Source: Streptomyces sp. R41 (GTDB taxonomy: Bacteria; Actinomycetota; Actinomycetes; Streptomycetales; Streptomycetaceae). Taken from it: a DNA stretch of 64,000 bases. The stretch lies in the NCBI RefSeq assembly GCF_041053055.1, contig NZ_CP163443.1, positions 8,539,001 to 8,603,000 on the forward strand, written 5' to 3'. Within the stretch, counting starts at the first letter, position 1; each line of letters starts with the position of its first letter. The notes under the pieces were generated by a model that saw nothing but the letters and a program-made list of their open reading frames with translations, searched no databases and was not told where the DNA came from. This document shows, one piece after another, positions 30,255-61,154 of this stretch. The position numbers and the translations under genes are program-made.

Positions 30255-30313
30255 GTGCTGGTTCCTCCTTGCGGCTCGGAGAATGGGGGGAGGAGCAACA
30301 AGCCTTGAACCAG

Positions 30314-30327: not shown

Positions 30328-30445
30328 TAGTGGAGAGGAGGGTGTGAGGGGTCAAGGTGCTTGAAGAGTCGAAATGATTCGATTGATCAACAGTGCAACA
30401 CCTCTGTCCTTTACTGACACTTGGCGCTAGCTTCATCCGCACCAG

Positions 30446-30459
30446 TGGGAGCGATTCCA
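30446..30459. promoter_or_regulatory. CebR operator upstream of GH5
   Basis: TGGGAGCGATTCCA differs at two positions from the CebR consensus. It lies 49 bases before the GH5 start. With the box at 30314 it brackets the divergent promoter region, 118 bases apart. Confidence 0.85.
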
Positions 30460-30507
30460 TCAGTCGACGCGTCCGTCACGACGCGCCCGAGCTGCAAGGA
30501 GTCGCTC

Positions 30508-44954: not shown

Positions 44955-45210
44955 GAGCTCTCGATCCTTCAGTCGTCGGGTGGTACTCCCATGGTCAACG
45001 ATCACGGGCCGTAATGCATTCCTGACCGGTGGATTCCTCGTGGATTCATGGTGGGGGCCGGGCGTCGGCCCCTGCCCCGAGCGGAGGTTGGCCGGAAATG
45101 GATCCGACCTTCTCGGTCCGGACCATTGACCGGATCCCGTCACCCCGCAACTCTGTATCACGTCACTGAACGCTCTCATGAACTCAGTGCACGCATGTGA
45201 ACGCCAGCGT

Positions 45211-45279: not shown

Positions 45280-45423
45280 ATGAACGAACAGTCGGCTCTC
45301 GAGGCCTCCCGTACACAACCGACCATTCGGGAAACATCGGAGGAAAGGGTCTGGGAGACCCCCGGGTATCTCGTCGTCGAGACCGCCCTGGAGGTCACCG
45401 CGTACGCCCTCGGCGAGCGCTAG
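45280..45423 (+). CDS. pqqA: PQQ precursor peptide PqqA
   Basis: A 47-residue peptide, the ribosomal precursor of pyrroloquinoline quinone. The conserved Glu and Tyr that become the cofactor are spaced EVTAY in ALEVTAYALGER, and WETPGYLVVETAL resembles the leader of actinobacterial PqqA. PqqE links the Glu and Tyr side chains on the PqqD-bound peptide. The ATG at 45280 is preceded by GGAAAGCGGG. The gene opens an operon: pqqC follows after 18 bases and is the first of seven more genes that overlap or nearly touch. The peptide is longer than the 23-29 residues typical of proteobacteria, as is common in actinobacteria. Confidence 0.9.
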   Translation: MNEQSALEASRTQPTIRETSEERVWETPGYLVVETALEVTAYALGER

Positions 45424-45441
45424 ACCACCGGTGGTCGAACC

Positions 45442-46239
45442 ATGACCGCGACAACCGTGCGCGACGACGGTGCCGCGGCCCCTTGGCGAACCCCCGAGTT
45501 CACCGAGCGGCTGCGCGCCGTCGCCGAGGAGCGCTACCACGACCGGCACCCCTTCAACACCCGTATGCATCAAGGCGAGTTGACGCCCGACGAGCTGCGC
45601 CGCTGGATCGCCAACCGCTTCCACTATCAGCGCCACATCCCCGTCAAGGACGCCCTGATCGTCGCCAAGTTCGGCGAGCCCGCGCTCCGCCGCGCCTGGC
45701 TGCGCAGGATCCAGGACCACGACGGAACCCCCGACGGCGAGGGCGGCATCGAACGCTGGCTGCGGCTCGGCGAAGCGGCCGGCCTTGACCGCCTGACACT
45801 GTGGGACGCGTCCCGGGTGCTGCCCGGCGTACGGTTCGCGGTCGAGGGTTATGTCACCTTCTGCCGCCGGCGACCGGCACTTGACGCGGTCGCCGCCTCG
45901 CTCACCGAGTTGTCGGCGCCCGGCCTGATGCGCAAGAGGATCGCCGCCTTCGAGCGGCACTATCCCTGGATCGACGCCGACGGGCTCGCCTACTTCCGGG
46001 CCCGCATCGGCCAGGGCGGACGGGACAGCGAGGAGGCCCTCGCACTCGTCCAGGCCTGGGCCCGCACCAGGGAACAGCAGGAACGGGCGGTGGCCGCGCT
46101 GGTGTTCAAGTGCGAGGTGCTGTGGGCCTTGTTGGACGCGGTGGACCAAGGCGGCGGGGAGGAGCGGGGCGTCCGGGTGGACCGGGGCGGCGGAGTGGAC
46201 CACGCCGGCGTGCTGCGCGACCCGGTGAGCGGGTCATGA
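45442..46239 (+). CDS. pqqC: Pyrroloquinoline-quinone synthase PqqC
   Basis: A 265-residue helical-bundle oxidase that performs the last ring closure and eight-electron oxidation of PQQ without a metal. Landmarks are RYHDRHPFNTRMHQGELTPD, WIANRFHYQRHIPVKDALIV, IQDHDG, GIERWLRLGEAAGL and the late FKCEVLWALLDAVD. The body ends near residue 240; the extra Gly/Asp/Val-rich tail (RGVRVDRGGGVDHAGVLRD) is poorly conserved in character. The stop overlaps the pqqD start (ATGA), so the proteins are translationally coupled. It would act in the cytoplasm on the intermediate released from processed PqqA. Confidence 0.95.
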   Translation: MTATTVRDDGAAAPWRTPEFTERLRAVAEERYHDRHPFNTRMHQGELTPDELRRWIANRFHYQRHIPVKDALIVAKFGEPALRRAWLRRIQDHDGTPDGEGGIERWLRLGEAAGLDRLTLWDASRVLPGVRFAVEGYVTFCRRRPALDAVAASLTELSAPGLMRKRIAAFERHYPWIDADGLAYFRARIGQGGRDSEEALALVQAWARTREQQERAVAALVFKCEVLWALLDAVDQGGGEERGVRVDRGGGVDHAGVLRDPVSGS

Positions 46240-46490
46240 CCTGGCGCCCCGCCCTCTCGCGATCCGTGATGCTCCGTCACGATCACGTCAGAGACACCGA
46301 CTTGCTGCTCCTCCCCGAGCGAGTCGTCGTCCTGCGCGGCACCGCGGGCAGCGTCGTCCGGCTCTGCGACGGCAGTCGCGCGGTTCCCGAGATCGTCGCC
46401 GAGCTGGGCGAACGGTTCCCCGGCGCGCCGGTCGCCGACGAAGTCCCGTTATTCCTCTCGGCGTTGCGGAAGGAGGGCTGGCTCCAGTGA
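46236..46490 (+). CDS. pqqD: PQQ biosynthesis peptide chaperone PqqD
   Basis: An 84-residue RiPP recognition element. It binds the PqqA leader and presents the peptide to PqqE. The winged-helix-like fold shows as WRPALSRSVMLRHDHVRDTD, LLLLPERVVVLRGTAGSVVR, LCDGSRAVPEIVAEL and a final FLSALRKEGWLQ, with size and pattern normal for PqqD. It overlaps pqqC by four bases and pqqE by four bases (GTGA), so all three are made together. Confidence 0.93.
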   Translation: MTWRPALSRSVMLRHDHVRDTDLLLLPERVVVLRGTAGSVVRLCDGSRAVPEIVAELGERFPGAPVADEVPLFLSALRKEGWLQ

Positions 46491-47566
46491 CCGTGGCTCC
46501 CCCCTGGGCCCTGCTCGCCGAACTCACCCACGGCTGTCCGTTGCGCTGCGCGTATTGCTCCAACCCCGTCGAACTGATCAGTCGGTCAAGAGAGCTGAAC
46601 ACCGAACAATGGGACGACGTGCTGCGCCAGGCCGCTGACCTGGGCGTCGTGCAGACCCACCTCTCCGGCGGCGAACCGCTCCTCAGGCGCGACCTCACCC
46701 GGATCGTCGAGGCCGCCGACACCGCGGGGCTCTACACCCAGCTCGTCACCAGCGGCGTGGGCCTGCACGAGCGGCGGCTCGCCGAACTGCGCGACGCCGG
46801 ACTGCGCTGCGTCCAGCTCTCCGTGCAGCACGCCGACCCGATTGCTTCCGAACTCATCGCGGGCGCCCGCTCGTTCGCCGCCAAGGAACGCGCAGCGCGC
46901 CTGGTGCGCGCCGCCGGACTCCCGCTCGGTCTGAACGTCGTGCTCCACCGCGCCAACATCGACGCCCTCGACGATCTGATCACCCTCGGCCTCGACTGGG
47001 GTGCCGAGCGGATCGAGCTCGCCAACACCCAGTTCTACGGCTGGGCGTTACGCAACCGCGCGGCCCTGCTGCCGACCCGCGTCCAGGTCGACCGGGCCCG
47101 TATCACCGTGACCCGACGCCGTGAACAGCTCGCCGGTGCTCTGGAGTTGATCTGGGTCGCACCCGACTACCTCGACGGCACCGCGAAACCGTGCATGGGC
47201 GGCTGGGGGGCCGTCTCCCTCACCGTCGCCCCGGACGGCACCGTACTCCCGTGCCCGGCTGCGGCGACCCTCCCCGACCTCGACCCGCCGAACGTGCTGG
47301 ACCACCGACTCGACTGGATCTGGCGCGAGTCGAAGGCCTTCAACGCCCACCGCGGCGAGGGCTGGATGCGGGACCCCTGCCGCACCTGCGCCCTGCGCAC
47401 CACCGACTACGGCGGCTGCCGCTGCCAGGCGTACGCGCTCACAGGCGACGCCACGCGCACGGACCCGGCCTGCCGTCACGCCCCCGACCACCACCTCGTA
47501 CGCACGCTCGTCGACGACAGCCCGCGTACGACCTCTGCCTACGCCTACCGAGAGGGAGGATCATGA
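46487..47566 (+). CDS. pqqE: PqqA peptide cyclase PqqE (radical SAM)
   Basis: A 359-residue radical SAM enzyme that forms the Glu-Tyr carbon-carbon bond in PqqA. The SAM cluster motif is CPLRCAYCSNP near residue 17-27, followed by HLSGGEPLLRRDL. A SPASM region with auxiliary-cluster cysteines follows (CMGGWGAVSLTV, LPCPAA, CRTCALRT, GGCRCQAYALTG). Start is GTG at 46487 overlapping the pqqD stop. Its own stop overlaps the ATG of a secreted GH105 gene. This ties PQQ synthesis directly to polysaccharide-degrading enzymes. No pqqB is found upstream, downstream or within the operon. Confidence 0.95.
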   Translation: MTVAPPWALLAELTHGCPLRCAYCSNPVELISRSRELNTEQWDDVLRQAADLGVVQTHLSGGEPLLRRDLTRIVEAADTAGLYTQLVTSGVGLHERRLAELRDAGLRCVQLSVQHADPIASELIAGARSFAAKERAARLVRAAGLPLGLNVVLHRANIDALDDLITLGLDWGAERIELANTQFYGWALRNRAALLPTRVQVDRARITVTRRREQLAGALELIWVAPDYLDGTAKPCMGGWGAVSLTVAPDGTVLPCPAAATLPDLDPPNVLDHRLDWIWRESKAFNAHRGEGWMRDPCRTCALRTTDYGGCRCQAYALTGDATRTDPACRHAPDHHLVRTLVDDSPRTTSAYAYREGGS

Positions 47567-48810
47567 GACGACGACTGCGAGCGGCGCTGCTCGCGGGCGC
47601 GCTCGCCACCGCCGGCCTGATGACGGTGTCCGCGACCGCGCCCCAGACTGCCGCCGCCGACCCTCAGCAGATCGCCGCGCCCGACGGATCCCGGATCGCC
47701 GCGCCCGCCGGATCCCGGATCGCCGCCCCCGGCCGGTCCCCGGTCGCCACGCCAGACTGGTCGGTCGCCCTCGTCGACTCGACCATGGCCCGCTACACGC
47801 CGAGCACGATCGGCGGCTGGTCGTACCCGGTCGGTCTCTACCTCTACGGCCAGTATCTCACCTATCGGCGCACGCACGACGCCCGCTATCTCACGTACAT
47901 CAAGAGCTATGCCGACCGCTTCGTGAAGAGCGACGGGACGATCAGCCAGAGCTTCAACAGCCTCGACAGCATGCAGGCCGGCCGACTGCTGACCATCCTG
48001 CACCACGAGACGGGTCAGGACCGCTACCGCAAGGCGGCGAAGAAGATCCGCGACCGGCTCACCACCTATCCGCGCACCGCCGACGGCGGCTTCTGGCACG
48101 CCGACACCAGCAGCCGTGCGCATCAACTCTGGGCGGACGGCGTCTACATGGTGAATCCGTTCCTCGTCGAATACGGCAAGGAGTTTGGGGACACGACGTA
48201 CGCGAACGACGAGGCGGCCAAGCAGCTGTACGTCTACGGCAGCCATCTCCAGGTCGCGAGCGGCCTGTTGAAGCACGCGTACGACGAGTCGAAGACCGCG
48301 AGCTGGGCCGATCCGCAGACGGGGCTCGCGCCCGAGCACTGGTGCCGGGCGGTCGGCTGGTACTCGATGGCGATCGTCAACGTGCTGGACGCGATCCCCG
48401 TAAGCCATCCCCGTCGGGCTCAACTGGTCGGCATCCTGCGGAAGTTGGCGGTCGGCCTGGAGAAGTACCAGGACCCGGCCACCGGGCGCTGGTTCCAGGT
48501 GATCGACAAGGGCGGCAGAATCGACAACTGGACCGAGACGTCCTGCTCCAGCATGTTCACCTACGCCCTCTCGCGCGGCGTCCAACAGGGCTACCTCGAC
48601 GCGCACTACGCCTCAGTCGCCCAGCGCGGTTACGAAGGCGTTCTCGCCAAGATCTCGACGGGCTCCGACGGCCGCACCAACCTCACCGACATCTCGATCG
48701 GCACGAACGTCGGCGACTACGCGTACTACGCCGCCCGCACCCGGGCCACGAACGACTTCCACGGCCTCGGTGCCTTTCTGATCATGAACGAACAGTTGCG
48801 AGGTGATTAG
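47563..48810 (+). CDS. Secreted GH105/GH88-like unsaturated uronyl hydrolase
   Basis: A 415-residue secreted protein with an Ala-rich signal peptide and a linker of repeated IAAPDGSR/IAAPAGSR units (24-base DNA repeats from 47671). The catalytic region is an (alpha/alpha)6 barrel: WSYPVGLYLYGQYLTYRRT, YVKSDGTISQSFNSLDSMQA-like segments, FWHADTSSRAHQLWADGVYM, GLAPEHWCRAVGWYSMAIVN and NWTETSCSSMFTYAL. These match GH105 unsaturated rhamnogalacturonyl hydrolases, which remove the delta-4,5 uronic acid left by pectin lyases. Most GH105 enzymes are cytoplasmic, so the export signal is notable. The ATG overlaps the pqqE stop by four bases (ATGA) and follows GGGAGG. Confidence 0.88.
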   Translation: MRRRLRAALLAGALATAGLMTVSATAPQTAAADPQQIAAPDGSRIAAPAGSRIAAPGRSPVATPDWSVALVDSTMARYTPSTIGGWSYPVGLYLYGQYLTYRRTHDARYLTYIKSYADRFVKSDGTISQSFNSLDSMQAGRLLTILHHETGQDRYRKAAKKIRDRLTTYPRTADGGFWHADTSSRAHQLWADGVYMVNPFLVEYGKEFGDTTYANDEAAKQLYVYGSHLQVASGLLKHAYDESKTASWADPQTGLAPEHWCRAVGWYSMAIVNVLDAIPVSHPRRAQLVGILRKLAVGLEKYQDPATGRWFQVIDKGGRIDNWTETSCSSMFTYALSRGVQQGYLDAHYASVAQRGYEGVLAKISTGSDGRTNLTDISIGTNVGDYAYYAARTRATNDFHGLGAFLIMNEQLRGD

Positions 48811-48814
48811 TGTC

Positions 48815-49594
48815 ATGAGCACGTCCAGAAGAGGGTTGCTCGGCGCCGCTCTCGGCGGCGCGGTCGGCCTCTCGAGCGCTACAGCGGCGCACGCTGCCTC
48901 CTGGCAGCAGAAGTGGGCCCCCTCGGCGAGCGGCAACGGACTCGGCGCTTTCGAGACCGTCGAGGACGATCGCGCCGACTCGCACCCCGCCGGACAGCCA
49001 CACATCTACGCGACCGGCGACAACTGGCGCTTCAACATGCACAGAGTCGACCGGGACACGTCGACCGACCGGCAGCGCCAGGAGGTCACCGGACTGCGCA
49101 ACGGCAGCGGCAGCAATTATCTGAAGTGGACCGAGGGCCAGACCTGGCGGGTCACGTACTCGATGTACATCCCGAGCTCGCTGAAGGCGACGACCACCTT
49201 CACCCACATCATGCAGATGAAGCAGCCCGGCAACGGCACCTCGCCGATCGTCGTGCAGTCACTGCGGCGTGTGAACGGCGTGCAGACCATCGAACTGAAG
49301 CTCGCGATCGACGACATCCTCGTCGGCCGTACGGACCTGGAGCCGCTGCACGACAAGTGGATCGACGTCGACTTCCAGATCAAGGTCGGTAACGGCTCGG
49401 CGGGCTCGGTCCGTTGGATCCTCAAGAACGGCTCGACCACGGTCGTCGACAAGTCGAGGACGGGCGTCGACACCTTCCTCGCCGACCGGGTGCGGCCCAA
49501 GTGGGGCATCTACCGCTCCCTCGGTGACACCTCCGGGTCACTGCAGGACTGCTACCTGCTGCTGACCAACCTCCGCGGCTACCAACTGGTGTGA
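48815..49594 (+). CDS. Tat-exported polysaccharide lyase-like protein (heparin-lyase fold)
   Basis: A 259-residue protein. The start MSTSRRGLLGAALGGAVGLS is a twin-arginine signal, so it should be exported folded. The mature part is a jelly-roll-like domain: ADSHPAGQPHIYATGDNWRF, RQRQEVTGLRNGSGSNYLKW, WRVTYSMYIPSSLKATTTFT, HIMQMKQPGNG and RPKWGIYRSLGDTSGSL. The RQE, YIPSSL, HIMQMK and KWGIYR pattern resembles heparin-lyase-like/PL20-type polysaccharide lyases, which cleave uronic-acid polymers by beta-elimination. Substrate is unknown; the pectin-like context suggests a uronate polymer. It begins five bases after the GH105 stop and ends 11 bases before the next gene. Confidence 0.7.
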   Translation: MSTSRRGLLGAALGGAVGLSSATAAHAASWQQKWAPSASGNGLGAFETVEDDRADSHPAGQPHIYATGDNWRFNMHRVDRDTSTDRQRQEVTGLRNGSGSNYLKWTEGQTWRVTYSMYIPSSLKATTTFTHIMQMKQPGNGTSPIVVQSLRRVNGVQTIELKLAIDDILVGRTDLEPLHDKWIDVDFQIKVGNGSAGSVRWILKNGSTTVVDKSRTGVDTFLADRVRPKWGIYRSLGDTSGSLQDCYLLLTNLRGYQLV

Positions 49595-49605
49595 GGAGCC
49601 GTCAC

Positions 49606-52600
49606 ATGAAACGCACACACTGGGTGACGACGGTCTTCTTCGCCTTCGCCGTGGTTCTCGGCCTGACACACCCCGAGGCCCTCGCGGCCGCACCGACGAC
49701 CCGGGCCGGCGTCTTCGACGTACGCGACTACGGAGCCAAGGGCGACGGCTCCACCAACGACACCTCCGCCATCAACAAGGCCATCACGGCTGCCAATTCG
49801 GCGGGCGGCGGCACGGTCCGCTTCCCCGCGGGCAAGTACAAGTCCAAGAACACCATCCACATGAAGAGCGAGGTCACGCTCCAGGTCGACAAGGGCGCGA
49901 CGATCCAGGGCTCCAGCGCGGACACGTACGACCCGCCCGAGGACAACCCCAACGACGCCTACCAGGACTACGGGCACAGCCACTTCCACAACGCGATGAT
50001 CTACGGCGACCGGCTCACGAACATCGGCTTCGTGGGCGACGGCGTCATCGACGGCCTCGGCAACCTCATCACCGGCAATCCCAAGTCCGGCGAGGCCGAC
50101 AAGATTCTGTCCCTGACCCGCTGCAACGGCCTGCGCATCGGCGACGGCCTCACCCTGCGCCGCGGTGGCCACTTCGCGGCCCTCATCAACGGCTGCACGA
50201 ACGTCACCTCGGACCACCTCACCATCGACACCGCGAGCGACCGCGACGGCTGGAACATCATCAGCACGACGAACGTCACGGTCACAGGCGCAAACATCAA
50301 GGCCAACGACGACGCACTCGTCTTCAAGAGCGACTACGCGCTCGGCGCCAAACTGCCCAACGGCCATGTACGGGTGAGCGATTCGTATCTGTCGGCGGTG
50401 TGCTGCAACGCGCTGATGTTCGGCTCCGAGACCTGCGGGGACTTCTCCGACTACCAGTTCGCGAAGATCCGTATCGAGGGCTCCAACAAGTCCGGGCTCG
50501 GCATGGTCTCGATGGACGGCGCGAAGATCTCGGACGTCCACTACCGCGACATCACGATGACCAACGTCCACTCGCCGATCATGCAGAAGATCGGTACCCG
50601 GAAGCGCTGCGGCAACAGTCCGGGCATCGGCTCGATCAGCGACATCACGTACGACAACATCACGGCGACCGGCTCCAGCCCCTCCTTCAGCCCGACGCTG
50701 TGGGGCGAGAGCGGCCACCGGATCAAGGGCGTCACCTTCACCGACGTCAACATCACCGTGCCCGGCGGCAACGGGACCATGTCCACCGCCGTGCCGAGCA
50801 ACGACCCGAACGACTACAACCCGAAGGCCATCGGCACGCGCCCCGCGTACGGCTGGTACCTCCACAACGCGGACGACGTCACCTTCACGGACAGCTCTGT
50901 GAAGTTCACGGCGAACGACGGACGCCCTGCCGTCATCGCCAACGCGGCGAGCGGGATCAGGTTCACGCGCCTCACGGCTCAGCGGGGGAGCGCGTCGCCG
51001 TATGACGCGGGGTTCCAGAACGTCACCGGGTACTGCCTGACGGACAGTCACAACACCACGGGCGGCGCGCTGCGGGTGTCCTCCACCGGGTCGACCGAGA
51101 ACTGTGCCGCCATGGCGAAGCCGCTCGACCTGGAGAACCCCCGCCAGGCGTTCCTCCGCGGCTCCGTCGGCGGACTCTTCCTGCACTGGGGTGAACGCAC
51201 CGCTCCCGCCCACACCAGCTGCACCGCCTGGGAGAACGACGTCACCAGCGGTGGCTGGACCCCCGACTACTGGGTGAAGGAGGCCCAGAAGCTGCACACC
51301 CAGTACCTCGTCCTCGCCACCTTCCACAGCCGGCTCGGCTACGCCCGCCCGTGGCCGTCGAAGATCCCAGGAAGCTGCTCCACCCGGCGCGACTTCCTCG
51401 GCGAACTGATCGGCGCGGCCAAGGCCGAGGGCCTCAAGGTCATCCTCTACATGACCGACGACCCTCAGTGGCACAACGAGGGCGGCCATGAATGGCTCGA
51501 CTCGGCCGCGTACTCCGCCTACAAGGGCACGAAGGTCGACCTCACCACCCGCGACGGCTTCGGCCGCTTCTCCTACGACAACTTCTTCGAGGTCATGGAC
51601 CGCTATCCCGACCTCGGCGGCTTCTGGATCGACAACGACAACGCGTACTGGGAGAGCCACAACCTCTACGCGCAGATCCAGCAGAAGCGCCCGAACTACA
51701 CGCTCAGCAACAACAACGAAGACACGCCGATCATGGACATGATCAGCAACGAGCAGAAGACGGGGATGACACCGCCGTACGACTACCCCCAGGCGGTCTA
51801 CACGGCCCAACCCCGCCTGACCGAGGCCGACTTCAAGCTCCCGTCGAGCGGGGCCTGGTGGTACGACGGCTCGAATCCCTCCGTCGACAAAATGCTCACA
51901 CTCGGCCGGCTGATCACCAACGCGGGCTCGTCAGTGAAAGCACTGATGGCCGAGACCGCCCAGGTCAACGGCAAGTTCCCGAGCAACCAGGCCGCTTTCA
52001 ACAACTTCGCCGACTCCTACCTCGACCCCATCTGGCCGTCCCTGCACGGCACCGAGGGCGGCGGCTACATGTACGGCGGCCTCAAACCCGGGTTCTGGAA
52101 CGACGGCGCCCACGGCGTGACGACGATCAGCAAGAGCGACCCCAACCTCCAGTACGTGCATGTGCTGACGCCGCCGTCCACCAGCACGCTGCGCATCCGG
52201 GACAACGGCTACCGGATCGCGTCGGTCGCCAATCTCCGTACGGGAGCGGCGATTTCATGGTCACAGTCCGGCGGGGTGCTCACGTTGAGCGGCCTCGCCA
52301 ACTGGGACCCGTACGACACCGTCTTCAAGGTCACGACCGCTGGGCGGCAGGGCATCCTCTCCGGGGTCACGGTCAGCGCGAGCGCCGCGTCGAGCGGTCA
52401 CGCGGCCTCGGCCGCGGGCGACGGCAATTACCTCACGTACTGGGACAGCGACAAAGCCCTGCCGGTCAACCTCACCTTCGACCTCGGCTCGGCGAAGAAG
52501 GTCCAGTACATCGGACTGAACCAGCGTGAGGACTCCGTCGCCTACCCGCGCTCCGAGACCGAACAGTCGGCGCGGATCAAGGCGTACAAGGTGTTCCTCA

Positions 52601-55089
52601 GCAACGACGGTTCCAGCTGGGGAAGTGCGGTGAAGACTGGGCAGCTGCCAAGCCGCCGTGGAATTCAGGGGATTGACCTGACGGCGGCCAATGCCCGCTA
52701 CGTACGCCTCGAAGTCGACTCCACCTGGGCCGCGTCCACCGACTCCACCCGGTATAAGCGGCTGCGGATCGACGAGGCGTGGATCGGGACGTCGTACGCC
52801 ACACCGGCGACGTACTCCACCTTCTCGGACAACGGTCAGTCCGTCCGCCCCGCGATGGGCTGGAGCAGTTGGAGCTTCGTGCGCCGCTGGCCCACCGAGG
52901 CGAAGATCAAGGCGCAGGCCGACGCCCTCGTGTCGAGCGGCCTCAAGAACCACGGCTTCGTGTACGTCAATCTCGACGACTTCTGGCAGAAGTGCGACGC
53001 CAATGGGTTCGTTGTCGACGGCTACGGGCGCTGGACCGTCGACTCCGCCAAATTCCCCTCCGGGATCAAGGCGCTGGCCGACTACATCCACTCCAAGGGA
53101 CTGAAGTTCGGCTTCTATGTGACACCGGGCATCGCCAAGAACGCGGTCACCAAGAACACGCCGATCGAGGGGACTTCGTATCACGCGGCCGATATCGCGG
53201 ACACGTCGAAAACCGAGAAGAACTACAACTGCAAGAACATGTATTACATCGACTACGGGAAGCCGGGCGCGCAGGAGTTCGTGAACTCGTGGGCGAAGCA
53301 GTTCGCCTCCTGGGGAGTCGACTACCTGAAGATCGACGGGGTGGGCAGCGCCGACATTCCCGACGTCCAGGCCTGGGACAAGGCGCTGCGAGCGACCGGC
53401 CGTCCGATCAACTTCGCGCTCTCCAACAACCTTCCGATCGCGAACGCCTCCACCTGGCGCGCGCTGGCGAACAGCTGGCGCACTCAGGGCGATGTCGAGT
53501 GCTACTGCGGTTCGGGCGCGAACGGCAGCGGCTATCCGCTGACCGACTGGTCGCATGTCTCCGCCCGCTTCACCTCGGCGGCCAACTGGCAGCCGTACGC
53601 CGGCCCGGGCGGCTGGAACGACCTCGACTCACTGGAGATCGGCAACGGAGACCAGGCGGGACTCACCGCCGATCAGCGCCGCTCCCACTTCACGCTGTGG
53701 GCGATGGCGGCCGCTCCGCTGCTGCTCGGTACCGACCTCACGCACGTCGACTCCGTCGACAAGGCGATGCTGACGAATGACCGGCTCATCGGCGTCGACC
53801 AGGACGGGGCCGCCGCGAAACGGGTTGTGAGCAGTGGTGTCAAGCAGGTCTGGAGCAAGAAGGAAAACAGCGGCGACTATGTCGTGGCGCTGTTCAACAC
53901 CGGTACGTCCGGCAACACCACGGTCGGTGTGAACTGGTCGCAGGTCGGTTTCACGGGCTCCGGCGACGTCACGGACCTGTGGTCGGGTTCCCACAAGGGT
54001 GTGATCGCGGACTCGTACAGTGCGACGCTGCGGCCGGGGGAAACACGGCTGATCCGTGTGAAGCCGGTGAGCGGCACGAGAGCTGTGGGTCCGGTCAACA
54101 GCGCCATGGCTGTGGACTCGGACAACAGCGCGATGGTTGTGGATCCGGTCAACAGCGCGATGGCTGTGAACTCGGTCAATCAGGTGAACGTTTCTGCTGC
54201 GGCTCCCGGTATGGCCGTCGCCCCCTACGAGTACCTCGGCTGGGGCAACCCGCAGAACCCCACCTCCGTGATGTCGGCGACCGGGGTCAAGTGGTTCACG
54301 CTCGCCTTCATCCTCTCCGATGGCTCCTGCAACCCGAAGTGGGACGGCTCGCGCCCGCTGACCGGCGGAAACGACCAGTCGAAGATCAAGGCGATCCGGG
54401 CGGCCGGCGGTGACGTCATCGTCTCCGTCGGCGGTTGGAGCGGTGCCAAACTCGGTGAGAAGTGTTCCAGCGCCTCGGCGCTCGCGGGCGCGTATCAGAA
54501 GGTGATCAACGCCTACGGCCTCAAGGTCATCGACATCGACATCGAGAACACCGAGTGGAACAACGCGACGGTACGGCAGCGCGTGATCGACGCGCTGAAG
54601 ATCGTGAAGGCCAACAACTCCGGTCTGAAGACCATCATCACCTTCGGTACGACGACCAGCGGGCCGGATTCCACCGGAGTGGACATGATCAAGCGGGGCG
54701 CCAACTCCGGTCTCGCGAACGACATCTGGTGCATCATGCCGTTCGACTTCGGCGGCGGCACCACCAACATGGGCACGCTGACCACGCAGGCCATGGAGGG
54801 CCTCAAGGCGCGAGTGAAGTCGGCGTACGGATACAGCGACGCGACGACGTACGCGCACATCGGCCTGTCGTCGATGAACGGCAAGACCGACGACTCCGGT
54901 GAACGGGTCCGCGTGGCCGACTTCAAGACCATGCTCGCCTACGCGCAGCAGCACCACATCGCGCGCCTCACCTACTGGTCCGTGAACCGCGACCGGGCCT
55001 GCGGCTCGGGTTCCGACGGTGACTCCTGCAGCGGCGTCTCCCAGCAGCCGTACGACTACCTCAAGGTCTTCGCCCAGTACACGGGCTGA
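49606..55089 (+). CDS. Giant secreted multi-enzyme: GH28 - GH29-like - CBM32 - GH27 - GH18
   Basis: An unbroken 1827-residue secreted protein. After a signal peptide come four catalytic-type domains. GH28 beta-helix, about 28-500 (GVFDVRDYGAKGDGSTNDTS, IKANDDALVFKS, MFGSETCGDF). GH29-like barrel, about 505-905 (GGLFLHWGERTAP, GGFWIDNDNAYW), followed by an F5/8-type CBM32, about 915-1060. GH27, about 1075-1490 (PAMGWSSWSFVRRWPTEAKI, VDYLKIDGVGS, GPGGWNDLDSLEIGN). A linker of 9-residue repeats leads to GH18, about 1535-1827 (VIVSVGGWSG, catalytic DIDIE 1643-1647). Predicted specificities are galacturonan-type, fucosyl or related, alpha-galactosyl, and beta-hexosaminyl linkages. GAGGAG precedes the ATG by seven bases. 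It sits 11 bases from its neighbours on both sides in the PQQ operon. Confidence 0.85.
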   Translation: MKRTHWVTTVFFAFAVVLGLTHPEALAAAPTTRAGVFDVRDYGAKGDGSTNDTSAINKAITAANSAGGGTVRFPAGKYKSKNTIHMKSEVTLQVDKGATIQGSSADTYDPPEDNPNDAYQDYGHSHFHNAMIYGDRLTNIGFVGDGVIDGLGNLITGNPKSGEADKILSLTRCNGLRIGDGLTLRRGGHFAALINGCTNVTSDHLTIDTASDRDGWNIISTTNVTVTGANIKANDDALVFKSDYALGAKLPNGHVRVSDSYLSAVCCNALMFGSETCGDFSDYQFAKIRIEGSNKSGLGMVSMDGAKISDVHYRDITMTNVHSPIMQKIGTRKRCGNSPGIGSISDITYDNITATGSSPSFSPTLWGESGHRIKGVTFTDVNITVPGGNGTMSTAVPSNDPNDYNPKAIGTRPAYGWYLHNADDVTFTDSSVKFTANDGRPAVIANAASGIRFTRLTAQRGSASPYDAGFQNVTGYCLTDSHNTTGGALRVSSTGSTENCAAMAKPLDLENPRQAFLRGSVGGLFLHWGERTAPAHTSCTAWENDVTSGGWTPDYWVKEAQKLHTQYLVLATFHSRLGYARPWPSKIPGSCSTRRDFLGELIGAAKAEGLKVILYMTDDPQWHNEGGHEWLDSAAYSAYKGTKVDLTTRDGFGRFSYDNFFEVMDRYPDLGGFWIDNDNAYWESHNLYAQIQQKRPNYTLSNNNEDTPIMDMISNEQKTGMTPPYDYPQAVYTAQPRLTEADFKLPSSGAWWYDGSNPSVDKMLTLGRLITNAGSSVKALMAETAQVNGKFPSNQAAFNNFADSYLDPIWPSLHGTEGGGYMYGGLKPGFWNDGAHGVTTISKSDPNLQYVHVLTPPSTSTLRIRDNGYRIASVANLRTGAAISWSQSGGVLTLSGLANWDPYDTVFKVTTAGRQGILSGVTVSASAASSGHAASAAGDGNYLTYWDSDKALPVNLTFDLGSAKKVQYIGLNQREDSVAYPRSETEQSARIKAYKVFLSNDGSSWGSAVKTGQLPSRRGIQGIDLTAANARYVRLEVDSTWAASTDSTRYKRLRIDEAWIGTSYATPATYSTFSDNGQSVRPAMGWSSWSFVRRWPTEAKIKAQADALVSSGLKNHGFVYVNLDDFWQKCDANGFVVDGYGRWTVDSAKFPSGIKALADYIHSKGLKFGFYVTPGIAKNAVTKNTPIEGTSYHAADIADTSKTEKNYNCKNMYYIDYGKPGAQEFVNSWAKQFASWGVDYLKIDGVGSADIPDVQAWDKALRATGRPINFALSNNLPIANASTWRALANSWRTQGDVECYCGSGANGSGYPLTDWSHVSARFTSAANWQPYAGPGGWNDLDSLEIGNGDQAGLTADQRRSHFTLWAMAAAPLLLGTDLTHVDSVDKAMLTNDRLIGVDQDGAAAKRVVSSGVKQVWSKKENSGDYVVALFNTGTSGNTTVGVNWSQVGFTGSGDVTDLWSGSHKGVIADSYSATLRPGETRLIRVKPVSGTRAVGPVNSAMAVDSDNSAMVVDPVNSAMAVNSVNQVNVSAAAPGMAVAPYEYLGWGNPQNPTSVMSATGVKWFTLAFILSDGSCNPKWDGSRPLTGGNDQSKIKAIRAAGGDVIVSVGGWSGAKLGEKCSSASALAGAYQKVINAYGLKVIDIDIENTEWNNATVRQRVIDALKIVKANNSGLKTIITFGTTTSGPDSTGVDMIKRGANSGLANDIWCIMPFDFGGGTTNMGTLTTQAMEGLKARVKSAYGYSDATTYAHIGLSSMNGKTDDSGERVRVADFKTMLAYAQQHHIARLTYWSVNRDRACGSGSDGDSCSGVSQQPYDYLKVFAQYTG
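54094..54174 (+). repeat. 27-base in-frame linker repeat between GH27 and GH18
   Basis: Three units at 54094, 54121 and 54148 encode VNSAMAVDS, DNSAMVVDP and VNSAMAVNS. They form the flexible linker before the GH18 domain and may mark where two genes were joined. Confidence 0.85.
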
Positions 55090-55100
55090 GGGGATCAACC

Positions 55101-57131
55101 ATGAAACTCACAAGAGCGCTTCCCTGGTGCCTTTCCCTGGCCCTGGCCGTGCCGCTGATCGGTCTGACCGGTTCGACGGCCCGCGCGGCCACCGACTACC
55201 AGGCCGAGGACGCCACGATCTCGCAGGGCACGGTGGCCTCCAACCACACCGGCTACACGGGCACCGGCTTCGTCGACTACACCAACACCACGGGCTCGTA
55301 TGTAGAGTTCACGGTGAGCGCGGCCTCGGCGGGCACCTCGTCGCTGGCCCTGCGCTACGCCAACGGCACCACTACCGACCGCCCCATGAACATCTCCGTC
55401 AACGGAACGGTCGTCGCCACCGGCGTCTCCTTCCCGGCCACCACCAACTGGGACACCTGGGCGGCCAAGAGCCTCAACGTCTCTTTGAACGCGGGCTCCA
55501 ACAAGATCCGCGCGACCGCCACCACGGCCAACGGCGGCCCCAACCTCGACCGGATCAGCATCGGAGCGGCGGCCGACACCCAGGCGCCGAGCCGCCCCGG
55601 CCAGCCGAGCTGCTCGGCGGTCACGGAGGACGGCCTCACCCTTTCGTGGGGCGCCTCGACGGACAACGTCGGCGTGACGGCCTACGACATCTACGAACAC
55701 GGCAACAAGCTCGGCGAGGCGCCTGGCGACGCGACCTCGAAGGCGCTCACCGGGCTGAGCCCCAACACCACCTACGACCTGACGGTCATCGCCCGGGACG
55801 CGGCCGGCAACGCCTCGCAGGCCAGCCCCGTCGTGGACTGCACCACCGCGCCGAGCTCCGACACCACCCCGCCGACCAAGCCCGGCACCCTCACCTCGTC
55901 CAACGTCACGGCCAACAGCGTCGACCTGAGCTGGGGCGCCTCGACCGACGACAAGGCGGTCGTCGGGTACGACGTGCGCAGCGGAACGACCGTCTACAAG
56001 TCCGTGACCGGCGGTACGTCGACCACGCTGACCGGACTCGCCTGCAACAGCCCGTACACCCTGAACGTCGTGGCGCGCGACGCGGCAGGCAATGTGTCGC
56101 CTGAGAGCAACACGGTCACCTTCACCACGCAGGCGTGCGCGACGGACGGCGGTGTTCCGTCGTCGATCGGGACGGTCTCCAGCGGGTGGACGATCCCGTG
56201 GGGCACGTACTGGATGCCCGACGGCCAGACCGCGCTGGTCACCGAGCGGGACGACTTCCGCGTCTGGAAGGTCACCAAGGACGGCACGAAGACGCAGGTC
56301 GGGACCGTGCCCAACGCGGTGACGACGAACGGCGAGGGCGGCCTGCTGGGCGTGGCGGCCGATCCGAAGTGGGAGACCAACCACTACGTCTACTTCATGC
56401 ACACGGCGTCCGAGGGCAACCGGGTCGTCCGCATGACGTACAACGGCAGCTCGCTGACCAACTACACGATCCTGCTCCAGGGCATCAAGAAGAACCGCTA
56501 CCACAACGGCGGACGCCTCGCCTTCGGCCCCGACGGCTATCTGTACGTCTCGACCGGTGAGGCCCAGACACCCGCCCTCGCGCAGGACAAGAACTCGCTC
56601 AACGGCAAGATCCTGCGCATGACGACGGACGGCAAGGCCGCTCCCGGCAATCCGTTCGGCAACTACGTCTACAGCTACGGTCACCGCAACCCGCAGGGCC
56701 TGGCGTTCGACCGCAACGGACGGCTGTGGGAGGCCGAGTTCGGCGACAGCTCCAAGGACGAGCTGAACCTCATCAAGCCGGGCGCCAACTACGGCTGGCC
56801 GACCTGCGAGGGCACGTGCAGCGTCTCCGGGATGACCAACCCCAAGAAGACCTGGAACGTCTCCGAGGCCTCGCCCAGCGGCATCGCCATCGTCCGCAAC
56901 GTCATCTACATGGCGTCCCTGCGCGGTGAACGGCTGTGGCGCATCCCCATCAACGGCGACACGGAGAACGTCGGCACGGCGACCGCCTACTACGTGGGTA
57001 CGTACGGCCGTCTGCGTACGGTCACCAAGGTCCCCGGCGCCGACCAGCTCTGGCTCTCGACCACCAACTGCGACAACAACGGAGGTGCGGCGGACGGCTC
57101 GGACAAGATCTTCCGGGTCAGCATCGGCTAG
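55101..57131 (+). CDS. Secreted PQQ-dependent sugar dehydrogenase with CBM35 and two FN3 domains
   Basis: A 676-residue secreted oxidoreductase. The order is signal peptide (1-29), CBM35 (about 31-155, YQAEDATISQGTVASNHTGY, TGTGFVDYTNTTGSYVEFTV), two fibronectin III domains (about 163-250 and 258-345), and a six-bladed propeller of the soluble glucose/aldose sugar dehydrogenase type (AA12-like, about 350-676). The catalytic-type segments are TYWMPDGQTALVTERDDFRV, GGLLGVAADPKW, RYHNGGRLAFGPDGYLYVST and GHRNPQGLAFDRNGRLWEAE. It should oxidise the anomeric carbon of aldoses or uronides with PQQ and Ca2+. CBM35 domains often bind uronates or plant cell wall. It is the last gene of the operon that makes its cofactor. 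Confidence 0.9.
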   Translation: MKLTRALPWCLSLALAVPLIGLTGSTARAATDYQAEDATISQGTVASNHTGYTGTGFVDYTNTTGSYVEFTVSAASAGTSSLALRYANGTTTDRPMNISVNGTVVATGVSFPATTNWDTWAAKSLNVSLNAGSNKIRATATTANGGPNLDRISIGAAADTQAPSRPGQPSCSAVTEDGLTLSWGASTDNVGVTAYDIYEHGNKLGEAPGDATSKALTGLSPNTTYDLTVIARDAAGNASQASPVVDCTTAPSSDTTPPTKPGTLTSSNVTANSVDLSWGASTDDKAVVGYDVRSGTTVYKSVTGGTSTTLTGLACNSPYTLNVVARDAAGNVSPESNTVTFTTQACATDGGVPSSIGTVSSGWTIPWGTYWMPDGQTALVTERDDFRVWKVTKDGTKTQVGTVPNAVTTNGEGGLLGVAADPKWETNHYVYFMHTASEGNRVVRMTYNGSSLTNYTILLQGIKKNRYHNGGRLAFGPDGYLYVSTGEAQTPALAQDKNSLNGKILRMTTDGKAAPGNPFGNYVYSYGHRNPQGLAFDRNGRLWEAEFGDSSKDELNLIKPGANYGWPTCEGTCSVSGMTNPKKTWNVSEASPSGIAIVRNVIYMASLRGERLWRIPINGDTENVGTATAYYVGTYGRLRTVTKVPGADQLWLSTTNCDNNGGAADGSDKIFRVSIG

Positions 57132-57182: not shown

Positions 57183-60100
57183 TCAGGTCCCCGTGTAACG
57201 ACCTGCCTCCTCGTCCGCGGTACGGCCGTCCAGCCGGGCGAGCAGGCGGTCCCGGACGTCGCTTCCTTCGGCCCCGGACACCTGCTCGTACCCTGCGAGG
57301 GCTTCGGCCCAGCAGGTACGGGCACGCGCGGACTCACCCCGTTCCTCCATGGCGTCACCCAGCACTACCAGGACATCGGCCCTGCGCCGGGCACCTCCCA
57401 CCCGGCCCAGCACGGCGAGCGCCTGCTCCGCCTCCGCGGCCGCGGAGGCGGGCCGGCCCGCGCCGAGGTGTATCTCGGCGCGCCGGAAGCGCGCCATGCC
57501 CTCGCCGAGCGCCTGTCCGCACTCCTCGTAGATCCCTAGCGCCTGGTCCAACTGCTCCAGGGCTTCGGGAATCTGCCCCGCTGCGGACAGCGCGAGCCCC
57601 AGCGCGTAGCGTGACTCGGCGAGCGCGAGCGTGGCGGCCTCCGAGCCGAGCCGCTCGATGGCCTCCTCGGCGAGTGCCACCGCACTGCGGACATTGCGCA
57701 GACTCGCCTCGACGTGGGACAGCTGACACAGCGCACTGGCCACACCGAACGGGTTCTCGTCCTCACGGAACCGCGACAGGGCCTCCCGCAGACACCGGTC
57801 CGCCTCCGTGTACCTGCGCTCCTGGAGTGCGATGACACCACGGTCGTACGGCACCCAGGCACTGGTCACGGGATCGTCGATCGCCACGGCCAGCGCCAGC
57901 GCACGCTGCGCCTCCGCATCGGCCTCCCGCAGATTCCCCGCCGTCAGATGGACCGCGGTGAGCGCCGCACACGCGCGGCCCTCCGCCTGGGCGTCCCGTG
58001 CCTCGCGCGCGGCACGCTGCGCCGCGGCCGCCGTGTCCTGGTACTGGCGGAAGTTGCCGGAGCCCACGATGTCCTTCACGCTCCACAGCAGATCGATCGA
58101 CCTGCGCAACTCGGAGCCCTGAGCGAGCTGGCGGGCGCAGGACAGGATGCACTGGGCCTCGGAGGCCAGCCAGCGCCTGGCGTCGTCGAGATAGGAGAAC
58201 TCGACGCCGGGATACCGGGCCGGTTCCAGATGCTCCACGCTTCGGTCACCGGGATGCTCGACCGCGTACACCCCGGTCGCGGTGGCCAGATAGAAGTCCA
58301 GCAGGCGGGTCAGTGCCGCCCCCCGTTCACTGGCGGGCTGTTCGTCCCGCTCCGCACAGGCGCGGGCGTACAGCCTGGTGAGGTCGTGGTAGCGGTAGCG
58401 GCCCGGTGCCGCCGCCTCCAGGAAGCCGGTGTCGACGAGCGCTTCGAAGATGTCCTCCGTCTCCTCCGGCGGCTGACCGAGCATGGCGGCGGCCGCGGCG
58501 AGAGAGATGTCCGATCCGTCGGCGAGGCCGACGAGACGGAAGGCGCGCGCCTGAGCAGGATCCAGCTGCCCGTATCCCATCTCGAACGTCGCCTTGACCG
58601 CGAGGTCCCCCGCCTGCAACTCGTCGAGGCGGCGGCGCTCGTCGGAGAGTTTGGCGGCGAGTACGGACACGGTCCAGGTACGGCGGGCGGCGAGGCGCGA
58701 GGCCGCGATACGGATCGCGAGCGGAAGGAAACCGCAGGCGGCGACCACATCGAGGGCGGCACTGCGTTCGGCGCCGACGCGCTCGGCCCCCACGATCCTG
58801 GTGAACAGCAAAAGCGCCTCGTCCGGGCTCATCACATCGAGGTCCACGAGGTGAGCCCCGGCCAGATCCACCATGCGGACGCGGCTGGTGACGAGCGTGG
58901 CGCACCCGGGAGTGCTGGGGATCAACGGCCGTACCTGGGCGGCGTCGCGGGCGTTGTCCAGGAGCACCAGCACCCGGCGGTCGTTCAGGACTGAGCGGTA
59001 AAGCGCCGAGCGTTCCTCCAGCGAGTCCGGGATCGCCGAGTCCTCCATGCCCAGAGCGCGCAGGAAGGAGCCCAGGACGGTCTCGGGCTCCGCCGCCCGA
59101 GCCCCGGCCCCTTGCAGGTCCACGTACAACTGCCCGTCCGGGAAGCCCTGGCGCACCTGGTGCGCGACGTGCACGGCGAGAGTGGTTTTGCCCACGCCTC
59201 CGATGGCGGCCAGGGCGGAAACGGCCACGACGGCTCCCGGCGTGCGGCCAAGGACCTGGCTCAGCTCGCGCACGAAGCCGGCACGCCCCGTGAAATCGGG
59301 GACGGTGGCGGGGAGTTGTGAGGGACGGACGAAGGCCGGCGCCGTCTCGCGGTGCTCCACGGAGGGTTCCGCAAGTCTCGGGTCGGCTTGGAGGATGCGC
59401 TGCTGCAACTCCTGTAGTTCGGACCGCGGGTCCACGCCGAGTTCGTCGGCGAGCAGGCGTCGGGTGTCCGCGTACACGGCCAACGCCTCGGCCTGGCGCC
59501 CGCTTCGGTACAGGGCAAGCATGAGCAGCTCACGCAGGCGCTCGCGCAAGGGGTGGGCGGCGGTCAGTGCCGTGAGCTCCGAGACCGCCTCCGCATGGCG
59601 ACCGAGTTCCAGGTCCAAGTCCAGGCGTGTCTCGCAGAGTTGCAGCCGCCACTCCTCCAATCTGACGCGCTGTGCTTCGGCATAGGGGCCCGGCAGGCCT
59701 GCCAGGGGCTCTCCGTCCCAGAGCGCGAGGGCCTGGTTGAACGTGTCACGTGCCTGCGCTCGTTCGCCGGCCGAACGGAGCGACTCCGCTTCTGCCGCAA
59801 GGCGCTGCGCATCCGCCAGATCGACCGAGCCGGCCGCGGTGCGCAGTGCGTATCCGCCGGACTCGCTGGCCAGGACACCTGGGCCGAGCACCTTGCGGAG
59901 CCGGGACGCGTACGTACGAACGGCTGCGAGGGCCTGGGACGGAGGCTCGTCTCCCCACAGCGCGTCGATCAACTGGGCGGCCGTGGCCGTGCGGCCTTCA
60001 CCCAGCAACAGGGCGGCGAGCAGAGCACGTTGCGGCGGCGAGCCGGCGGACAGGGCCTCCGCGCCGCGCCACGCCCGAACCGGACCGAGCACACTGAAAC

Positions 60101-61154
60101 GCAGCGTCGGCGTGCCCTCCTCGGTCCGGCCCTGCGGCACGTCCCCGACGGACGTGTCAGGAACGTGCCGGCGTACGGGTACACGAGGGCCTCGGGGCTC
60201 GGGCGGGGAGATCGGTGCCGCGGGCGCTCGCTGCACCCCCCGCCGCATGACATCGGCACGCCGCGCGGCCTCCACGAACAGGGCCCTGACTCCGGTGACA
60301 CGGCGGTCGTCCCGAGCGTCGCGGGCCCCTTCGCCCTCGACGGCGGCGAGACTGAGCAGCGCGGCGACCGTCTGGGGATGGTGCGCGCCCACGGTCGCGG
60401 CGGCCTTCTGCGTGGCGACGGCCAGCACGTCCGCGGCGCGTCCCATCCGGTCACGGTCTCCGGCGGCCCGCGCGGACTCGAACTCCGCGGTGGCCAGGGC
60501 CACCAGCGCCGACAGGGACTGCGGGTGTTCGCCGCCGAGCAGGCCCACCACGCGGCGGACGGCGCTTTCGAGGCCGTCCAGCAGCTCGTCCGCGTCGTCG
60601 TGCCGACCCTGCCGCCGCGCCGTCGCCGTCAGGACGGAGGCCACCAGGAGGCGTACGTCCAGCTCCTCCTCGGCGTGGTCGACCGCGGCCATCCGCTCCC
60701 GGGCCTGCGCGGCCGCTGCCGCGGCACCTTCGATGTCGCCCAGCCGGATCTTGAGCGCCGCGAGATTGGCCAGCGTCCTCGTGGCAGCCGCGTCGCCGCC
60801 CGGATCGAACTGCAGCGCTGAGGACAGCACGGTCGCGGCGGCGGCCAGATATCCGCGATCGGCCAGGGTCACCGCCAGTTGGTTGCGCGAGGTGCTGTCG
60901 AGGTTCAGCCCGTCGGTGTCCCACGCCAGACGGGATGCCACATGCTGGAGGAGCGCCTGCGACGCACTCTGCAGACCGAGGCTGTCGAGCAGCGCGGTGA
61001 GGCGCGCCAGGTCGCGGCTGAGGGCCGGATGGTGCAGCACGTGGTCGTCCGCACGCAGGCGTTCGACGGCGCGGGTGGTCCGTACGGCGGCCGTGCTGTC
61101 GCCCCGCAGTGCGAGGGCGGCGTGGGAGATCGCTTCCTGCCAGACGTCGGTCAT
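57183..61154 (-). CDS. TPR - SARP (BTAD) - NB-ARC - TPR regulator of the second Trypco1/trypsin locus
   Basis: A 1323-residue cytoplasmic protein. The N-terminal 300 residues are TPR-like helices. An OmpR-type winged helix follows at about 350-440 (LRFSVLGPVRAWRG, LLAALLLGEGRTATAAQLID), then a bacterial transcription activation domain to about 585 (LMLALYRSGRQAEALAVYAD). The NB-ARC switch has Walker A GGVGKTTLAV near residue 655 and Walker B VLVLLDNARDA. C-terminal TPRs run from about 900. AfsR/SARP proteins normally begin with the DNA-binding domain; here it is internal. The ATG at 61154 overlaps the stop of the trypsin gene, so the three-gene set Trypco1-trypsin-regulator is coupled. A longer upstream open frame overlaps the protease gene and was rejected. 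Confidence 0.85.
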   Translation of the reverse strand: MTDVWQEAISHAALALRGDSTAAVRTTRAVERLRADDHVLHHPALSRDLARLTALLDSLGLQSASQALLQHVASRLAWDTDGLNLDSTSRNQLAVTLADRGYLAAAATVLSSALQFDPGGDAAATRTLANLAALKIRLGDIEGAAAAAAQARERMAAVDHAEEELDVRLLVASVLTATARRQGRHDDADELLDGLESAVRRVVGLLGGEHPQSLSALVALATAEFESARAAGDRDRMGRAADVLAVATQKAAATVGAHHPQTVAALLSLAAVEGEGARDARDDRRVTGVRALFVEAARRADVMRRGVQRAPAAPISPPEPRGPRVPVRRHVPDTSVGDVPQGRTEEGTPTLRFSVLGPVRAWRGAEALSAGSPPQRALLAALLLGEGRTATAAQLIDALWGDEPPSQALAAVRTYASRLRKVLGPGVLASESGGYALRTAAGSVDLADAQRLAAEAESLRSAGERAQARDTFNQALALWDGEPLAGLPGPYAEAQRVRLEEWRLQLCETRLDLDLELGRHAEAVSELTALTAAHPLRERLRELLMLALYRSGRQAEALAVYADTRRLLADELGVDPRSELQELQQRILQADPRLAEPSVEHRETAPAFVRPSQLPATVPDFTGRAGFVRELSQVLGRTPGAVVAVSALAAIGGVGKTTLAVHVAHQVRQGFPDGQLYVDLQGAGARAAEPETVLGSFLRALGMEDSAIPDSLEERSALYRSVLNDRRVLVLLDNARDAAQVRPLIPSTPGCATLVTSRVRMVDLAGAHLVDLDVMSPDEALLLFTRIVGAERVGAERSAALDVVAACGFLPLAIRIAASRLAARRTWTVSVLAAKLSDERRRLDELQAGDLAVKATFEMGYGQLDPAQARAFRLVGLADGSDISLAAAAAMLGQPPEETEDIFEALVDTGFLEAAAPGRYRYHDLTRLYARACAERDEQPASERGAALTRLLDFYLATATGVYAVEHPGDRSVEHLEPARYPGVEFSYLDDARRWLASEAQCILSCARQLAQGSELRRSIDLLWSVKDIVGSGNFRQYQDTAAAAQRAAREARDAQAEGRACAALTAVHLTAGNLREADAEAQRALALAVAIDDPVTSAWVPYDRGVIALQERRYTEADRCLREALSRFREDENPFGVASALCQLSHVEASLRNVRSAVALAEEAIERLGSEAATLALAESRYALGLALSAAGQIPEALEQLDQALGIYEECGQALGEGMARFRRAEIHLGAGRPASAAAEAEQALAVLGRVGGARRRADVLVVLGDAMEERGESARARTCWAEALAGYEQVSGAEGSDVRDRLLARLDGRTADEEAGRYTGT

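Follow-up and report, generated by a model that had tools for sequence, protein, structure and literature searches.

Genes for synthesis of pyrroloquinoline quinone and for secreted polysaccharide-degrading enzymes in a predicted single operon of Streptomyces

The chromosome of Streptomyces sp. R41 (10.46 Mb) contains, in a stretch of 64,000 nucleotides at bases 8539001-8603000 that is called the window here, a group of genes in which the pathway for the cofactor pyrroloquinoline quinone (PQQ) runs directly into genes for secreted carbohydrate-active enzymes and a secreted quinoprotein. Eight open reading frames (ORFs), all of them open and all on the plus strand, lie back to back between positions 45280 and 57131 (Table 1). 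This arrangement is real and conserved. The locus is likely to be a single, inducible operon, found in a clade of Streptomyces, in which the supply of PQQ is coupled to the extracellular breakdown and oxidation of a polymer of uronic acid with fucose or galactose. All the parts are of known families; what looks new is their arrangement, together with a series of relatives in which the cofactor genes have decayed in place. Among the best matches in the open-access literature, no title or opening of an abstract describes an operon that joins PQQ synthesis to carbohydrate-active enzymes.

Gene order, promoter element and conservation

The intergenic gaps are 18, -4, -4, -4, 4, 11 and 11 bases, taking the ATG at 48815 as the start of the lyase and the ATG at 49606 as that of the long glycosidase. 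An earlier note on the window had given the same eight genes with identical gaps, and the open ORFs and the family matches of their products bear this out. No terminator-like site was found on the plus strand inside the operon; the five sites detected are all on the minus strand, and shuffling gave an expectation of 6.2.

The region upstream of pqqA carries a conserved promoter element with a -35 box, TTGACC (45126-45131), a spacer of 17 nucleotides and a -10 box, AACTCT (45149-45154). The boxes were assigned by eye and the element was recognized by its conservation; a strict sigma-70 scan returned zero promoters. A stretch of about 45 bases leading up to TTGACC, and AACTCT 17 bases further on, are strongly kept in all ten aligned loci: that of the window, one with a damaged pqqC (L139; L and G numbers denote compared loci and genomes) and eight more in which pqqACDE is present. 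In loci that lack the pqq genes, the core of the element precedes the first gene of the enzyme cassette instead. Among the 20 loci L122-L141, L139 included, the core is present with at most 3 mismatches in 16 and with 4 mismatches in 2, a level at which the operator core is often matched at random. The exceptions are L133, whose contig begins at the GH105 gene, and L140. That the same promoter precedes pqqA in some loci and GH105 in others is the strongest argument from sequence for a single transcription unit, and the genes are probably cotranscribed. A separate promoter dividing the pqq genes from the later ones, which the earlier note had named as the finding that would split the unit, was not seen in the sequence.

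The palindrome GGTCCGGACC within the element resembles the site of the regulator DasR, for which the consensus A(G/C)TGGTCTAGACCA(G/C)T is given in an excerpt of PMC4398421. A single promoter with such a DasR-like operator would induce the enzyme genes and pqqA, C, D and E at once. When the genome was searched with the operator, allowing up to 3 mismatches, 11 sites were obtained, compared to 7 for the reversed control, so that the site without mismatches is the only one clearly above chance. Genes for GH18, alginate-lyase-like and GH105-like secreted proteins lie beside three of the other operator-like sites, a lead that comes from reading by eye.

Table 1. Features of the PQQ and carbohydrate-active enzyme locus, in positions of the window
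Feature	Position	Strand	Evidence
Conserved promoter/operator element TTGGCCGGAAATG...CGGTCCGGACCATTGACC, palindrome GGTCCGGACC	45088..45154	+	Conservation across loci
pqqA, precursor peptide, 47 aa, core ETALEVTAY	45280..45423	+	TIGR02107 19.7 bits, cut-off 20; ORF kept in relatives
pqqC, PQQ synthase	45442..46239	+	TIGR02111 279.8 bits, cut-off 240
pqqD, peptide chaperone	46236..46490	+	TIGR03859 69.8 bits, cut-off 46
pqqE, radical SAM/SPASM enzyme	46487..47566	+	TIGR02109 488.3 bits, cut-off 381
Predicted secreted GH105, YteR-like unsaturated uronyl hydrolase	47563..48810	+	PF07470 302 bits; 1nc5 (YteR) 277.6 bits
Predicted polysaccharide lyase with Tat signal, beta-jelly roll	48815..49594	+	PF14099 33.4 bits, cut-off 29.9
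Predicted secreted glycosidase GH28-GH29-CBM32-GH27-GH18, 1827 aa from ATG	49606..55089	+	Pfam, NCBIfam and PDB matches
Predicted secreted quinoprotein: CBM35, two fn3, Asd-type GSDH beta-propeller	55101..57131	+	PF07995 236 bits; 3das 310 bits
BTAD/NB-ARC/TPR regulator, 1323 aa, convergent with the operon	57183-61154	-	

PqqC scores over its cut-off in 65 of 295 Streptomyces genomes, and in 10 of 374 genomes of a search across the class, 7 of which belong to the same genus. The earlier note had asked for the same gene order in other actinobacteria. It was found within the genus, where pqqC is contiguous with the GH105 gene of the cassette in 12 of the 295 genomes, the window included. These 12 cassettes vary in content; three (L051, L077 and L099) have kept pqqB, and the contig of L077 ends before any quinoprotein. 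It was not found in the 14 loci compared from other genera, where the quinoprotein is accompanied by the lyase in 6, by GH105 in 5 and by GH29 in 5, and none has pqqC within the 10-kb flanks.

The surroundings of 74 pqqC genes outside the window were fetched. They fall into 55 loci of the window's type, most of which have the full A-B-C-D-E order, and 19 of a divergent type. A gene for a quinoprotein of the GSDH family is present within 6 kb in 31 of the 55 loci and further along in 9; the remaining 15 have none in the stretch, including two cut by contig ends (L077 and L096) and those of genomes G054, G095, G164 and G179, where a GSDH gene lies just outside, some 5-6 kb from pqqC. In contrast, a GSDH gene is found in 0 of the 19 divergent loci. 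A quinoprotein close to that of the window is encoded in 42 of the 65 genomes with pqqC versus 18 of the 230 others (Fisher p 2e-20, uncorrected for kinship). Furthermore, a divergent aldo/keto reductase gene recurs in 73 other loci and an upstream GH75 chitosanase gene in 38 (some species being counted twice), so that this is one old chromosomal site. The divergent pqq type (L033-L048, L074, L103 and L106) encodes a PqqC 49-59% identical to that of the window and has no GSDH neighbor in stretches of up to 20 kb.

The secreted enzymes and their substrate

The GH105 protein has an Asp at the position where the YteR chain 2gh4 reads Asn, the position of the catalytic residue of GH105. The lyase carries a twin-arginine signal and has no PDB sequence match at E 0.1. 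Its predicted structure has the fold of a beta-jelly roll and is nearest to an endo-beta-1,4-glucuronan lyase (the family PL20 is defined by 2zzj). This modelled fold favours beta-1,4-glucuronan as the substrate, but a fold match does not show specificity. In the long glycosidase, GH28, GH29, an F5/8-type CBM32 and GH27 are called by Pfam, which gave no GH18 at E 0.001, and GH18 is recognized from PDB matches. The four catalytic domains that the earlier note had assigned to this one protein are thus all present. The same domains are joined in one polypeptide in the window, divided over two in other loci, or encoded by separate genes each with a CBM35, which suggests that they work together. 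The lyase would cut a polyuronate chain and the GH105 enzyme would take off the unsaturated end residue, leaving the GH28, GH29, GH27 and GH18 domains to strip side chains and associated chains.

Two substrates fit this enzyme set, and the logic of the operon is the same for either. The first is the wall or exopolysaccharide of zygomycetes (Mucoromycota), a beta-1,4-glucuronan with fucose, mannose and galactose that is bound to chitin and chitosan. It is a serious candidate, although one that falls somewhat short of being probable. The GH28 domain and the YteR-like GH105 point to pectin instead, Pfam found no mannosidase in the operon, and the synteny with GH75 may be merely regional. In addition, Foldseek by itself puts PL7 alginate lyases at the top for the lyase model, and likeness of fold is no proof of specificity. 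The second, the pectin-like polymer of the earlier note, survives as one of the two and is rather doubtful. It would be plant pectin, namely rhamnogalacturonan I with galactose and fucose side chains as in root or seed mucilage. The closest relative of the GH105 protein is YteR (277.6 bits), the GH28 domain is closest to the model for the rhamnogalacturonidase BT4146 (304 bits, below the cut-off of 500), and the CBM35 of the quinoprotein also matches 2w47 (113 bits), which an excerpt of PMC9843283 gives as the CBM35 of a rhamnogalacturonan acetylesterase. Pectin, however, leaves the GH18 domain and the GlcNAc-type operator unexplained and does not agree with the lyase model, whose nearest structure cleaves glucuronan; neither rhamnosidase nor pectin lyase domains were found in the eight proteins.

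The last gene encodes a CBM35/CBM6 module, two fn3 domains and a GSDH domain (PF07995, 236 bits against a cut-off of 25). The best solved match of the dehydrogenase domain is 3das, listed in an excerpt of PMC6881789 as the Asd of S. coelicolor. The PQQ-site residues are His468, Arg529, Asn530, Arg608, Arg637 and Arg639. Among 141 matched GSDH stretches, which include some species twice, the Arg-Asn pair is present in 141, the His in 139 and the late Arg residues in 138 and 141, and every cassette locus among them keeps the His, Arg-Asn and Arg-x-Arg. Membership of CAZy family AA12 in the strict sense was considered and dropped, because the best matches are Asd proteins, there is no AA12 chain among the 49 PDB sequence matches (E up to 0.001), and AA12 is less than 20% identical to Asd according to an excerpt of PMC6881789. 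By its sequence the dehydrogenase is of the Asd type, which makes the CBM35-bearing PQQ sugar dehydrogenase of the earlier note more specific.

The CBM35 matches 2vzp and 2vzq, with 156.8 bits to 2vzp, and the motif SNHxGYTGTGFV, a Trp and GGPN are aligned. The roles of the His, Trp and Asn of the uronate-binding signature are described in an excerpt of PMC9843283. By these matches the module is of the uronate-binding type; the assignment of residues to roles is our own reading. The quinoprotein would be loaded with PQQ outside the cell, be held there by its CBM35 and oxidize the released sugars. The earlier note had suggested that the electrons feed an oxidase or oxidative cleavage of the polymer, which finds no support in the operon. 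Oxidase, cytochrome and lytic polysaccharide monooxygenase (LPMO) domains were not found in the eight proteins, and a linked LPMO or cytochrome was rejected as electron acceptor; three AA10 LPMO genes are located elsewhere in the genome.

The cofactor genes

PqqC, PqqD and PqqE exceed their family cut-offs. PqqA falls just short of its own, yet has the Glu-x3-Tyr core. The operon has no pqqB, and only 18 bases separate pqqA from pqqC. The sole pqqB match of the genome is an orphan on the other chromosome arm, 7.8 Mb away (G000:C1:778974-779873). Its product scores 341 bits (cut-off 245) and aligns over residues 3-299, end to end, with the solved PqqB structure 4z5y. The operon was said in the earlier note to make the cofactor; it encodes pqqA, C, D and E for this, and pqqB lies elsewhere.

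The separation of pqqB is not peculiar to the window. Operons of this type with pqqA-C-D-E and no pqqB occur in 10 genomes, and all 10 have a pqqB over the cut-off elsewhere, nine as an orphan and one (G192) within a second pqq operon. An unlinked full-length pqqB is present in 9 of these 10 genomes, compared to 20 of the 285 others. The neighborhood of the orphan is conserved in 12 of 12 loci, its own included, and the orphan proteins form a clade separate from operonic PqqB in a quick tree that has no bootstrap and carries a long-branch warning. They score higher against the PqqB family in the genomes with pqqB-less operons than in 13 genomes without pqqC (9 versus 13, p 0.012; six orphans from genomes with another pqqB, and G285, were excluded). 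PqqD and PqqE would mature PqqA, the orphan pqqB may supply the missing step in trans, and PqqC would complete PQQ. At its own locus (L032) the orphan is flanked by a MarR-type gene and a gene for a 370-residue protein without a Pfam match; a GH42 gene, a sugar-transport operon and genes for an SrpI-like encapsulin and a terpene synthase are nearby.

The cofactor genes have been removed from this locus repeatedly. The survey of loss covered 80 of the 123 loci found. In 29 of them the pqq genes are gone and the interval between the promoter element and GH105 is readable; 16 of the 29 contain scars of pqqA, some of them together with pieces of pqqC or pqqE. The scars were found by a word search run without a shuffle control, and the weakest (L159) has 4 mismatches in 21 bases. 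L214 has a pqqA ORF with Cys in place of the core Tyr and, after it, 44 codons from the start of pqqE. L170 and L171 have an internal stop in pqqA, pqqC runs into the 3' end of pqqE in L221, and L139 (genome G127 of the genus set) has an internal deletion in pqqC. On a tree of 52 loci built from GSDH, GH29 and GH105, the presence of pqq changes state at least 8 times, and at least 5 of these changes are forced by well-supported branches (quick method). The root was not inferred, and 48 loci were labelled; L173, L191, L206 and L212 were left without a label, although in the first three an operator was found and a scar was not. L231 and L232, in which pqq is present, were dropped. The scars show that many of the changes are losses, so that pqq is probably ancestral to this Streptomyces locus. 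A partly palindromic sequence of pqqE, ACTGATCAGTCGGTCA (46573-46588), persists as a spacer with at most 2 mismatches in the scarred loci L167, L169, L170, L195 and L220, and L195 has three similar copies; the loci may have inherited a single deletion, or the sequence may have a regulatory function.

Both PQQ and the enzyme that uses it would be extracellular. The cofactor genes may therefore be dispensable wherever PQQ is available, and would be lost repeatedly while the enzymes and the promoter are kept. There is a precedent for outside use, as E. coli and fungi employ PQQ that they do not make (excerpts of PMC6881789 and PMC6881810). A bolder proposal, which is put forward tentatively and is more doubtful than the coupling itself, is that PQQ synthesis is an inducible and dispensable module of a zygomycete-wall locus, made only on meeting fungal glucuronan or chitin. 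PQQ would be a diffusible public good, loaded outside the cell into an exported, carbohydrate-anchored quinoprotein. Perhaps five to eight Streptomyces lineages would have dropped pqq and live on the PQQ of their neighbors, a Black-Queen pattern with scars left in place.

Several observations weigh against the coupling of PQQ supply to this enzyme set. Proteins with a GSDH domain are encoded in 292 of the 295 Streptomyces genomes, with four in the genome of the window, so that the use of PQQ is not peculiar to the operon, and the operon encodes no electron acceptor. An unlinked pqqB is also present in the 13 genomes without pqqC, and the NNTNP motif is missing from 2 of the 12 orphans; some orphans may therefore have another role or be relics. 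Three genomes with pqqC have no pqqB match at all. G156 has pqqA, C and D and lacks pqqE, and G257 has no pqq gene except pqqC; G218 belongs to the other pqq type and has pqqC, D and E, its contig breaking off 1.2 kb upstream. The operator is a prediction, CGGTCCGGACCA sharing 9 of the 12 core bases of the DasR site. Finally, a quinoprotein at least 80% identical to that of the window occurs in at least 29 of the 295 genomes, 15 of which have no pqqC match, so that the enzyme can be retained in the absence of the cofactor genes. These counts are lower bounds, as candidates were limited to E up to 1e-95 and no more than 7 were scored in each genome. The identity threshold replaced PF07995, which was rejected because a domain found in nearly every genome cannot mark the cassette.

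The same facts can be read to mean that the pqq genes entered the operon by an accident of insertion, that their PQQ serves other quinoproteins or unrelated ends, and that the quinoprotein of the cassette uses environmental PQQ in any case. The near universality of GSDH, the many cassettes that persist without pqq, and the scars would all be expected. Nevertheless, this is improbable: pqq genes of the window's type adjoin GSDH in several arrangements (upstream, downstream and divergent), pqq and the cassette are served by the same promoter element, and loci exist in which pqqABCDE and the quinoprotein occur together without the other cassette enzymes (L058, L060, L063, L070 and L071). Least credible by far is a beta-propeller that no longer uses PQQ and has another role. 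In its favor, the GSDH family includes proteins such as hedgehog-interacting protein, which has a non-enzymatic role and appears as a weak match. Against it, the His, Arg-Asn and Arg-x-Arg are kept in nearly all 141 stretches and in all cassette loci among them, and the best matches are Asd structures. The coupling of PQQ synthesis to secreted carbohydrate-active enzymes and a secreted PQQ dehydrogenase, as the earlier note had it, is supported by conservation, by the single promoter element and by the retention of the PQQ-site residues.

Known systems, surroundings and implications

Canonical pqqABCDE(F) operons have PqqA, C, D and E of the same standard families in the same order. The operon of the window differs from them in that pqqB is missing and unlinked, that it continues into four genes for secreted enzymes, and that its promoter element is common to versions of the cassette without pqq. 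The quinoproteins of the Asd/sGDH group (PF07995; S. coelicolor 3das, P. aerophilum 3a9g, E. coli Asd) share the propeller family and the PQQ-site residues, whereas the enzyme of the window has a uronate-type CBM35 and two fn3 domains in addition and is encoded with the cofactor pathway and carbohydrate-active enzymes. The fungal PQQ pyranose dehydrogenases of AA12 are likewise secreted sugar dehydrogenases. Some of them carry a carbohydrate-binding module, and the organisms that secrete them depend on PQQ from outside (excerpts of PMC6881789 and PMC6881810); an AA12 enzyme is reported to drive LPMO action (PMC5960967). The likeness is a functional analogy, and the window protein differs in lacking the cytochrome domain AA8. 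Polysaccharide utilization loci and the carbohydrate-active enzyme operons of Streptomyces resemble this operon in the clustering of secreted hydrolases and a lyase, here under an operator that resembles the DasR type. The operon is unlike them in that none of its eight genes encodes a transporter or an enzyme of intracellular catabolism, that cofactor biosynthesis is built in, and that the domains are reshuffled over one or several polypeptides in relatives.

A cellulase island (24557-31983) is located about 13 kb upstream of the operon and encodes a CBM2 protein with BNR/sortilin-type repeats, a CBM2-GH48 and a CBM2-GH5. Between them, at 37425-41462, is a gene for a 1345-residue nSTAND1 NTPase with WD40-type repeats, possibly a defence-type protein, the first 400 residues of which match no other compared locus. 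The convergent BTAD/NB-ARC gene downstream was rejected as a dedicated regulator, since among the compared loci, many of which end within 4 kb downstream, it is present only in the window, L120 and L175, the latter two apparently from one species.

A cofactor pathway and depolymerases behind one promoter would give PQQ a testable function in Streptomyces. The remote pqqB, in a fixed chromosomal place and split from pqqACDE, allows the role of PqqB to be tested cleanly by genetics. Should the zygomycete wall prove to be the substrate, the operon would indicate a set of enzymes for it. Relatives that have the enzymes and no pqq genes would have to take PQQ from their surroundings, and the range of pqq genes behind one promoter, from intact through partly deleted to erased, represents a natural experiment on the loss of a shareable cofactor.

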